A stretch of 34,810 nt of DNA from Bacteroidota bacterium (GTDB lineage Bacteria > Bacteroidota > Bacteroidia > Palsa-965): assembly GCA_013298545.1 (NCBI GenBank), contig JAAFIA010000025.1, forward strand, positions 17,628 through 52,437. Direction: 5' to 3'. Numbering within the stretch: the stretch's first letter is position 1; each line of letters starts with the position of its first letter. Under the pieces are notes generated by a model. It was not told where the DNA came from. It ran no database searches and saw only the letters and a program-made list of their open reading frames with translations. A program made the position numbers and the translations under genes. Shown here piece after piece: positions 19,070 through 21,580 of the stretch.

Positions 19070-20062
19070 ATGAAAAAAATCTACACAATCGTTGCGTTAC
19101 TGGCTCTCGGTATTTCTGCTAACGCACAAAACAAAACCAATGCACAAGCTGCATTCAACGGCCCAGCACAACCAAGCCGCAATACATTAAATCCAAACCT
19201 GCAAGCTAATGGCGACACATTGATGTGGATGCCATTGCTCGGTTATTACATCAACCCAACTGACCAGCCAAACTTTGCTATTCAGATCGAAGACATCGAT
19301 GGTTTGGCTCTTTCACAAAGTACCATTCAATGTTCTGATTGGTGTGCTTTCTTTTCAACCGATGCTGGTGATATCGATCCTAATCAAGGTGATATTGATA
19401 CTGGATTTTTCTGGGGTGCAACCTCATACTTTGCTCCAGTTGCAACTGCTGACAACTGGCTCGAATTTGGACCAATCACCTTGCCTTCTTCTGGTGGCCA
19501 CGTTAAATGGAACTACAAAATGCAAGACAACAGCTACCGTGATGGTTACGAAATCCTTGTAAACACAAACAGCTTAAACTTTAGCGATTTTACAAACCCA
19601 CCAATTTTTGCTGTAGCTGATAATGCAGCTTCTACAAATGGTGATACTACATGGACTGCTGCTCCTGGTGCTGATATGAGCGCTTATGCTGGTCAATCAG
19701 TTTACATTGCATTCCACCACAATGCTGCTGACATGTTCATCCTTTGGATCGACAATATCCTCGTTATCGAAGGACCATTGAGCACAGAAGAAAACAACAG
19801 CGACCTTACAATTGGTCAGAACATGCCAAACCCTGCAACAGGAAACACCGTTATCAATTACAGCCTCAAATCAAACAGCGATGTTGATGTGGTTGTTTAT
19901 GATGTAACTGGTGCTGCTGTAATGACAAGCCATGTTGAAAACCAAGCTGCTGGTGCACACACACAAACCTTGAACGTTGAAAATCTTGCTGCTGGTGTTT
20001 ATTACTACACTGTAACTGCAAACGGCGTTAGCAAAACAAATAAAATGGTTGTTACGAAGTAA
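19070..20062 (+). CDS. T9SS-sorted surface protein, adhesin-like beta-sandwich
   Basis: The protein has 330 residues. A signal peptide (MKKIYTIVALLALGISANAQ) precedes a passenger of about 220 residues. This ends in a C-terminal type A sorting domain (GQNMPNPATGNTVINY ... GVYYYTVTANG ... KMVVTK). The passenger has features of the choice-of-anchor J/cleaved-adhesin beta-sandwich: DNWLEFGPITLPSSGGHVKW, YEILVNT, AYAGQSVYIAFHHN and FILWIDNILVIEG. It is presumably secreted and anchored to the cell surface, and the ligand is unknown. Its C-terminal domain is clearly related to that of the gene at 20399. A terminator follows. Confidence 0.9.
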   Translation: MKKIYTIVALLALGISANAQNKTNAQAAFNGPAQPSRNTLNPNLQANGDTLMWMPLLGYYINPTDQPNFAIQIEDIDGLALSQSTIQCSDWCAFFSTDAGDIDPNQGDIDTGFFWGATSYFAPVATADNWLEFGPITLPSSGGHVKWNYKMQDNSYRDGYEILVNTNSLNFSDFTNPPIFAVADNAASTNGDTTWTAAPGADMSAYAGQSVYIAFHHNAADMFILWIDNILVIEGPLSTEENNSDLTIGQNMPNPATGNTVINYSLKSNSDVDVVVYDVTGAAVMTSHVENQAAGAHTQTLNVENLAAGVYYYTVTANGVSKTNKMVVTK

Positions 20063-20082
20063 TCTCCATTTCAGATTTAAAA

Positions 20083-20116
20083 ATAGCCGGATAGATTTCT
20101 ATCCGGCTATTTTTTT
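20083..20116 (+). terminator. Terminator after the 19070 gene
   Basis: A perfect 12-bp stem (ATAGCCGGATAG at 20083-20094, complement at 20099-20110) has a 4-base loop and a T-run at 20110-20116. Confidence 0.93.
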
Positions 20117-20127
20117 GCCAATTGTTA

Positions 20128-20305
20128 AGAGCCTGTTTAAAATTTGTTTTTGAGAATTGTTATGATGCATTTTTGTGCCAGACGAGGCGCGTTTTGAAGG
20201 CCATAGCGGCGCGCCTACGGTCGAAAAACGCAACGAAGTATGGTGCAAAAAGGCGCATAACAATTCCGAGGCTTCGGAACAAAGGATGAAATTTAAACAG
20301 GCTCT
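20128..20305. mobile_element. MITE-like palindromic repeat element
   Basis: This 178-bp element has perfect 14-bp terminal inverted repeats (AGAGCCTGTTTAAA at 20128-20141 and its complement at 20292-20305). A second inverted block pairs 20154-20180 with 20241-20266, with the first 11 bases exact. The centre contains GC-rich palindromes (AGGCGCG at 20185-20191 with CGCGCCT at 20210-20216). A separate hairpin, TTCCGA-GGCT-TCGGAA, lies at 20264-20279. The whole unit could fold into one branched structure. It encodes no convincing protein; an open frame starting at 20175 is an accident of the repeat. No second copy is in the window, so the mobile nature is inferred from structure. Confidence 0.65.
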
Positions 20306-20332
20306 AAGCCAACAAAACCGTTTAGCAAGAAC

Positions 20333-20364
20333 TTTGTTATTCTATATTGATTTTAGTATATTTG
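20333..20364 (+). promoter_or_regulatory. Promoter of the 20399 gene (-33 and -7 boxes)
   Basis: TTTG at 20333-20336 and TATATTTG at 20357-20364 are separated by 20 bases, a textbook Bacteroidota primary-sigma promoter. The ATG is 34 bases further on. The promoter starts 28 bases after the palindromic element. Confidence 0.8.
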
Positions 20365-20398
20365 TTATTCGCAATAAAAACTAAACAACACAACTGCA

Positions 20399-21580
20399 AT
20401 GAAAAAAATCTACGCTTCACTTTTTCTTGGGCTTCTCGGCATCTCCGTAACTGCTCAGAATTTGAATGTTGTTCCAACTAGCGGACATATCCCGCGCAGT
20501 ATGCCACAACGCAATGCCAATCCTTCGACACAAGCCACCGCTAATTTTTATGTGGATTATGATTTTTCTGATGAGGATTATCAAGTAAACACACTTGGAA
20601 ATACTTATTCGCGCTATATCTGGGATATGAATATGCGCTATGATTATACCTTGGGTGATACCAGTTTGAAATGGGCTGCTGTCGATTTCAATACATTGAT
20701 CGATTCGTATAACGGCTCTACACCTGTTTCTTTCGCTTCGTTTGCAACGTACACCATTGACTCTGTATTCATTCTTTGTGGTCACTCTAATTACTCTGGC
20801 GCAAACGATACCATTTTGATTAAAATCGTTCAATTGTCGTCTGGTGGCTATCCTACTTACCCAGGAACAATTTTACATACTGACACATTGATTACCAATG
20901 CTAGTCTTTTTGGTGCTGCAAGTTGGTTGAATTCTGGTGTTGCATACTCAACGCCAAACTTGACACTCCCAAACTCAACCAAATTTGGTGTTCGTGTGGA
21001 GTATTATGGCGATCGCTTGGATACATTCGGAATCCTTTGCGGGTTTGGTGATCTTGGACCTGGTCAGTGTGCCAGTATTCCACTGCTCAATAATTTCGCT
21101 ATCGAGTCAAACTATACACAAAATAGCTATCGCCACGATATGCGTTTTGCGTTACCTCCAAACAATATTGCGCAATTGCCAACTTCAAGTGGTGCAGATA
21201 CCTATTACGATTGCGATGGTAGCCAAAGCTATCAATCAGGTGTAGATGCTGAAAATTTCTTGCAAAATTTCGGTATTTGGGTGAACCTCACAACGATTAC
21301 CGGAGTTGAAGAGTATGCAGGTATTTTAGGTGTTGGTCAAAACGAACCTAATCCAGTTGCAAACACAACCAATATCCCGTACAGCTTGAAAGAAAACAGC
21401 GATGTTTCTCTTACTGTATATGATGTAACAGGTAAAGTTGTAGCTACGCAAACAGCACAAAATCAAGCTGCCGGCAGTCATAAATTTACAGTTGATGGAT
21501 CTGTTCTTTCATCTGGTGTTTATTACTACACTGTTGATGCTGGTCAAGGACGTGTTACACGCAAAATGATTGTTCAGTAA
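20399..21580 (+). CDS. T9SS-sorted surface protein
   Basis: The protein has 393 residues. It has a signal peptide (MKKIYASLFLGLLGISVTAQ), an aromatic and Asn/Thr-rich beta-type passenger that I cannot assign to a family, and a C-terminal type A sorting domain (GQNEPNPVANTTNIPY ... SSGVYYYTVDAG ... KMIVQ). The start and the sorting domain closely resemble those of the gene at 19070, including an identical 22-base stretch (21513-21534 and 19992-20013). The passengers differ. It is expected on the cell surface or released. Confidence 0.88.
   Translation: MKKIYASLFLGLLGISVTAQNLNVVPTSGHIPRSMPQRNANPSTQATANFYVDYDFSDEDYQVNTLGNTYSRYIWDMNMRYDYTLGDTSLKWAAVDFNTLIDSYNGSTPVSFASFATYTIDSVFILCGHSNYSGANDTILIKIVQLSSGGYPTYPGTILHTDTLITNASLFGAASWLNSGVAYSTPNLTLPNSTKFGVRVEYYGDRLDTFGILCGFGDLGPGQCASIPLLNNFAIESNYTQNSYRHDMRFALPPNNIAQLPTSSGADTYYDCDGSQSYQSGVDAENFLQNFGIWVNLTTITGVEEYAGILGVGQNEPNPVANTTNIPYSLKENSDVSLTVYDVTGKVVATQTAQNQAAGSHKFTVDGSVLSSGVYYYTVDAGQGRVTRKMIVQ

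Follow-up and report, generated by a model that had tools for sequence, protein, structure and literature searches.

The palindromic element at 20129–20304 of the window (the whole stretch of DNA analyzed, 34,810 nucleotides) is likely a non-autonomous IS5-type MITE with a conserved, strand-specific hairpin as its cargo, and this cargo probably acts as RNA. The element is present in many copies, is flanked by target duplications, shares its ends with IS5_3 insertion sequences, and is absent from the orthologous gap of two related genomes. The initial annotation had proposed a MITE or a structured repeat. The MITE reading is supported by the dispersed copies, the empty orthologous gap, and IS elements whose ends are of this kind.

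Results

Structure and boundaries of the element

The 14-bp perfect terminal inverted repeats described in the initial annotation were confirmed in both arms, AGAGCCTGTTTAAA (20128–20141) and the reverse complement TTTAAACAGGCTCT (20292–20305), as were the second inverted block (GAATTGTTATGATGC / GGCGCATAACAATTC) and the extra side hairpin (16 nt, TTCCGAGGCTTCGGAA, 20264–20279). TAA was read directly on either side of the element (20126–20128 and 20305–20307). Since the outermost A and T are part of this 3-bp target duplication, the element proper is 20129–20304 (176 bp). The features are as follows.

20079–20114, + strand: hairpin resembling an intrinsic terminator, assigned to the upstream T9SS gene and not part of the element (perfect 17-bp inverted repeat)
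20126–20128, no strand: target-site duplication, left copy, TAA (from the sequence)
20129–20304, + strand: MITE proper, 176 bp; the + strand carries GACGAGGC and has the best fold
20129–20141, + strand: left terminal inverted repeat GAGCCTGTTTAAA (G, a variable 3-nt tip, and CTGTTTAAA)
20181–20188, + strand: conserved internal loop, left side, GACGAGGC
20232–20238, + strand: conserved internal loop, right side, AACGAAG
20264–20279, + strand: optional side hairpin TTCCGAGGCTTCGGAA, missing in the 163-bp form
20292–20304, − strand: right terminal inverted repeat
20305–20307, no strand: target-site duplication, right copy, TAA (from the sequence)

The palindrome strand folded with an energy of −74.2 kcal/mol (z = −7.4), and none of 200 dinucleotide shuffles was equally stable. 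The element has no transposase gene; the longest internal ORF among 34 representatives was 53 aa (median 36). Copies in the genome to which the window belongs (the source genome) were mostly 163, 176, or 189 bp (range 163–190), and these steps are 13-nt side hairpins. This side hairpin, approximately 13 nt long, is an accessory: 26 of the 44 aligned source-genome copies were 163 bp and lacked it.

Locus and the empty gap in relatives

Both genes flanking the element encode a T9SS sorting domain of type A (TIGR04183), in agreement with the initial annotation. The terminator placed before the element corresponds to the terminator-like inverted repeat listed above, which ends just upstream. A promoter-like sequence, TTTG...TATATTTG, is located downstream, and we take it to fit the Bacteroidota promoter consensus. 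With a terminator-like hairpin on one side and a promoter-like sequence on the other, the element could be read as one local structure that regulates or attenuates the two T9SS genes. However, in two genomes of the same genus, G001 and G002, the element is missing from the short gap between the orthologous T9SS genes. This is the empty site in relatives that the initial annotation had anticipated, although the divergence of the gap prevents a base-exact definition. The terminator-like inverted repeat was also read from the sequence of the empty gap in both genomes. Furthermore, the element occurs at at least 39 other places in the source genome, and its orientation to genes is random. A local regulatory element is refuted by the copy number together with the empty gap, and we consider this explanation hardly credible.

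Copies, target duplications, and subfamilies of ends

The source genome (4.53 Mb, 154 contigs, 97% complete) was searched. As expected for a dispersed repeat in the initial annotation, copies were found at at least 40 places with 86–100% identity (40 scored of 145 first-look candidates). There were 44 matches at these 40 places, and the four extra matches are the same palindromes on the opposite strand. The end motif CTGTTTAAAWTT was found at 153 sites in this genome and at 11 sites for the reversed control. The single-copy structure that the initial annotation had named as its counter-case is excluded by this copy number. Six of the 946 pairs among the 44 aligned copies were identical; therefore, movement has been recent.

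Equal flanking 3-mers were found in 61 of 78 copies from the source and related genomes (31 TTA and 24 TAA), a figure that is somewhat optimistic because the choice of boundaries gave a bonus for equal flanks. Only 2 of the 78 copies were inside an ORF according to a crude ORF caller. Core-free micro-elements of 52–59 bp that share these ends were also present (L113 756–814, L112 820–878, and L123 648–699). L113 and L123 had equal 3-bp flanks, and the tips of L112 differed between its two ends. The core is dispensable for insertion because core-free micro-elements also carry target duplications.

The three bases after the terminal G varied by subfamily (AGC, AAG, TAA, AAT, and AGG; 20129–20132 and 20301–20304 in the window). 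These 3-nt tips were nearly always complementary between the two ends of one copy, the exceptions being L112 and L114, which had unlike tips. The listing of terminal repeats comprised 73 rows, including spurious pairings and copies from other genomes. In G317, the flanking 3-mers of the elements (L190–L216) look like ATT, TAT, or ACT and not TNA, which perhaps reflects another IS5 subgroup with a different target. In G357, L168 (GAGGCTGTTCAAT) and L302 (GAAGCCATCTCAA) carry the same core with unrelated ends in one genome, as if the ends had been swapped.

Insertion sequences with the ends of the MITE

The initial annotation had suggested recognition by a transposase encoded elsewhere and an IS with the same terminal sequence. 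Three unrelated types of ends were common to MITEs and IS5-family elements (NCBIfam IS5_3) in relatives. The first, TGTTTAAA, was found in the IS5_3 elements of G004 and G016, which bear out the suggestion with ends of the same kind (GAGACTGTTTAAAATTT in G004 and GAAACTGTTTAAAATTT in G016). One of these elements (L130 in G016) had GAAGTTGTTTAAAGTC at both ends and a 250-aa IS5_3 transposase (135 bits), and further IS ends with GARACTGTTTAAAATTTATTC occurred in both genomes. The only IS5_3 match found in the source genome was a remnant with ATAACTGTTTAAAAA.

The other two types, with quite different sequences, provided independent tests. The second type, CATCTTGACTTTTT, was found in the complete genome G317 (IS at 3906769–3907681). 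MITEs in this genome end in GAACTCATCTTGACTTTTT, and the decayed IS5_3 element there has GAAGTCATCTTGACTTTTT / GAACTCATCTTGACTTTTT. The third type, GCCATCTCAAAATAGTT, was shared between the IS of G131 (11 IS5_3 copies) and the MITEs of the congeneric G019 and G217. The MITE ends in the latter two genomes are GAAGCCATCTCAAA, and the fully read G131 copy (L231) has the ends GAAGCCATCTCAAAATAGTT / GAGGCCATCTCAAAAATAGTT. G131 itself has one diverged MITE copy with the same type of ends as its multicopy IS. An IS with MITE ends was, thus, present in the same genome in G317 and, by type of ends, also in G004 and G016. Most of the MITE-bearing genomes tested had no intact IS5_3 element; matches were obtained in 5 of 10 and 4 of 14 genomes, and several of these were remnants. 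An IS5 element from a Bernardetia plasmid had GAAG-YTGTTTAAGAAT-like ends (ends read in one of H1, H2, and H5).

IS5_3 transposases probably act on the MITE ends and move the element, although the source-genome assembly has only an IS5_3 remnant.

Two other candidate parents were rejected. The IS at the contig edges of C48 and C21 (GAGCCTGTTTAAAATTTGTCCCGAA followed by a 74-residue frame) had no Pfam or NCBIfam match. It was found in 1 of 99 genomes searched, the source genome itself and thus no relative, and not in genome_contigs or plasmids. In C46, the same IS end is joined to the other half of a MITE; therefore, an unrelated IS has inserted in the CCCGAAGCATCGGG side hairpin. This IS without a family match (N-terminal 74 residues) was located at the CCCGAA side hairpin of MITE-like sequence in C48 (L227), C21 (L228), and C46 (L009). 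All three contig-edge copies seen share this position, which suggests a target preference for the CCCGAA side hairpin. The second candidate (L086 in C122, source genome) has an intact IS1182-family transposase (483 aa, 368 bits). It is not the parent because its ends begin with GAGGTTGCTGAAAAAGTC.

Distribution and covariation of the conserved core

The core alignment consisted of 17 elements from seven genomes, all 161–164 bp and almost gap-free. Changes on both sides were found in 38 of 57 base pairs. There were 153 double-change cells, as compared with 44.8 in shuffles and up to 25 in slid-partner controls. Base-pair covariation exceeds that in the controls, and a single-stranded DNA hairpin would yield the same covariation. 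A covariance model detected the element, 160–167 bp and nearly always full length, in at least 47 of 395 genomes of the class (27 of 197 genera); 47 is a lower bound because seven matches at most were scored per genome with strict filters. The exact core pattern was found in 15 stretches of genome_contigs, all in records with Bacteroidota titles (Saprospiraceae, Lewinella, Chitinophaga, Sphingobacteriaceae, and 'Bacteroidetes bacterium'), and in none of viral_contigs. A distant blastn search gave no match to the element in plasmids or phages. In the region 19900–20500, no Rfam family reached its gathering score; weak matches (E ≤ 1) were on, or reached over from, the upstream terminator or were within the downstream gene. 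A search of the PMC literature found no description of the family, which is weak evidence of absence as most subscription papers lie outside that search. The report on a Cardinium MITE (PMC9769881) and a review (PMC10969869) deal with other elements.

The asymmetric internal loop GACGAGGC / AACGAAG was common to all elements, even those with unrelated terminal repeats. Loop sites A57 and G59 and stem site T67 were invariant among 34 representatives with less than 80% identity. In the 126 of 561 pairs with ends less than 50% identical (mean 34%), the loop was 76% and the stem 48% identical. None of 19 IS loci matched the covariance model, and, thus, the core is not an IS remnant. As judged from these comparisons, the interior is a conserved cargo, a hairpin of approximately 160 nt with a fixed asymmetric loop (GACGAGGC / AACGAAG).

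An ordinary functionless MITE could have an inert interior derived from one ancestral master, with the hairpin and loop persisting through recent masters. According to a review, IS-like ends are frequent among MITEs, and such MITEs fold into long hairpins (PMC10969869). The existence of repeat-only mini-elements with target duplications and the lack of an orientation bias (see below) are also in line with this explanation. However, length, pairing, and the loop nucleotides are kept even in the most divergent pairs, in which identity is down to 48% in the stem and 34% in the terminal inverted repeat. The loop would not be expected to be the best-kept part of inert DNA. The 153 double-change cells against 45 by shuffling, as well as a strand asymmetry that is consistent even for the lower stem alone, also argue against a functionless interior, which we regard as unlikely.

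Strand asymmetry and the question of a transcript

For the comparison of strands, 86 of 91 elements were kept (≥150 nt), and 34 divergent representatives below 80% identity were then taken. The GACGAGGC strand folded better than its complement in 33 of the 34; with the lower stem alone, without the core, it was better in 30, worse in 1, and tied in 3; and 17 of 18 further elements also folded better on this strand (the exception was L290), all of these being sign counts that are less independent than they appear because the elements are related. G-U pairs outnumbered A-C mismatches in the alignment of the representatives (127 vs 30), which was fitted to the model and leans towards structure; fold energies are free of this bias. 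Among the 44 source-genome copies, variant types at paired sites were 19 G-U and 7 A-C (p = 0.03), and singletons at paired sites were 10 G-U and 3 A-C (p = 0.09). A palindrome recognized purely as double-stranded DNA would give no reason for this asymmetry.

No orientation bias relative to genes was detected; between co-directional neighbors, 21 elements were oriented with and 22 against the genes. This result speaks against an element that is read in the mRNA of its neighbors. Six of 34 representatives had the promoter motif TAnnTTTG on the + strand, against a mean of 2.7 in shuffles. Since six is too few, a conserved internal TAnnTTTG promoter is not supported.

The strand bias may also originate from a hairpin that acts as single-stranded DNA, either attC-like or REP-like, and is recognized in replication or recombination. 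A strand-specific fold with conserved extrahelical bases is consistent with this possibility, and the lack of bias relative to genes fits DNA as well as RNA. However, the 3-bp duplications and IS5-type ends indicate double-strand DDE transposition. Moreover, if the origin of G317 is placed at the contig start, a count by eye assigns 12 of its 18 copies to the presumed leading strand, a non-significant excess. We regard single-stranded DNA as an improbable active form, with appreciably less in its favor than even an inert interior.

The structured transcript proposed in the initial annotation holds in part, for the structure, as the + hairpin is conserved strand-specifically, and a transcript from the element is what we infer from this conservation.

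Discussion

We propose that a gene-free element of 160–190 bp is moved in trans by IS5-family DDE transposases (NCBIfam IS5_3). These transposases would recognize the terminal inverted repeats, and insertion would duplicate 3 bp (TNA, mostly TTA/TAA). The GACGAGGC strand would then act in single-stranded form, in all likelihood as hairpin RNA whose loop binds a protein, and selection for the hairpin fold may keep the elements active. The step served by the hairpin may be regulation of the element, stability or protection of RNA, or tolerance by the host. Across many families of the class, the hairpin is, on the alignments, kept in length, pairing, and strand (G-U over A-C mismatches), and the ends are replaced. 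Its conservation on one strand, though the ends changed completely, suggests that the hairpin itself has a function. In terms of sequence relationships, the elements are a class-wide MITE superfamily, and their ends follow those of the IS5 elements resident in the genomes.

We also tentatively speculate, at somewhat less than even chances, that the element is a class-wide mobile non-coding RNA with a protein-binding loop that borrows and repeatedly swaps the ends of resident IS5 elements. With equal reserve, the RNA could then be regarded as the conserved unit and the MITE ends as an interchangeable vehicle.

The IS1031/IS427-like groups duplicate TNA. MITEs with such IS5-family parents resemble the present element in being short and gene-free, with IS5_3 ends, a 3-bp TNA duplication, and dozens of intergenic copies. 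In contrast, the interior sequence, structure, and strand are conserved class-wide in the present element, independent of the sequence of the terminal inverted repeats. The REP/BIME sequences of RAYT transposases are similarly strand-specific imperfect hairpins between genes; the present element differs from them in its 160-bp size, terminal inverted repeats, and 3-bp target duplication. Correia/NEMIS, ERIC, and QMITE2 are restricted to single genera or families, and they are set apart here without a sequence comparison. These elements are also palindromic and intergenic, and the part of the source concerned with them describes transcripts predicted to fold into stem-loops (PMC10969869). MITECca01 of Cardinium (Bacteroidota) is approximately 240 bp, has an IS982 parent, and is described in the relevant part of the report as unique to one strain (PMC9769881). 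It is likewise a high-copy intergenic MITE in a Bacteroidota genome with a parent IS that has matching ends; however, a conserved RNA-like core, as in the present element, is not part of its description in that section (PMC9769881). BrickBuilt of Porphyromonas gingivalis is another intergenic MITE of Bacteroidota and, according to the corresponding part of its report, contains a minisatellite (PMC4596501), whereas none was seen by eye in the present element.

The covariance model is usable to annotate unannotated intergenic palindromes in Bacteroidota. Bacterial MITEs are usually viewed as lineage-specific leftovers of IS elements. In the present case, the interior is strand-specific, exceeds the ends in conservation, and occurs in 27 of 197 sampled genera of the class. 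A hairpin RNA, if it exists, would be a non-coding RNA that parasitizes IS5 transposases for its spread, and the idea that MITEs carry selected RNA cargo could then be tested directly.
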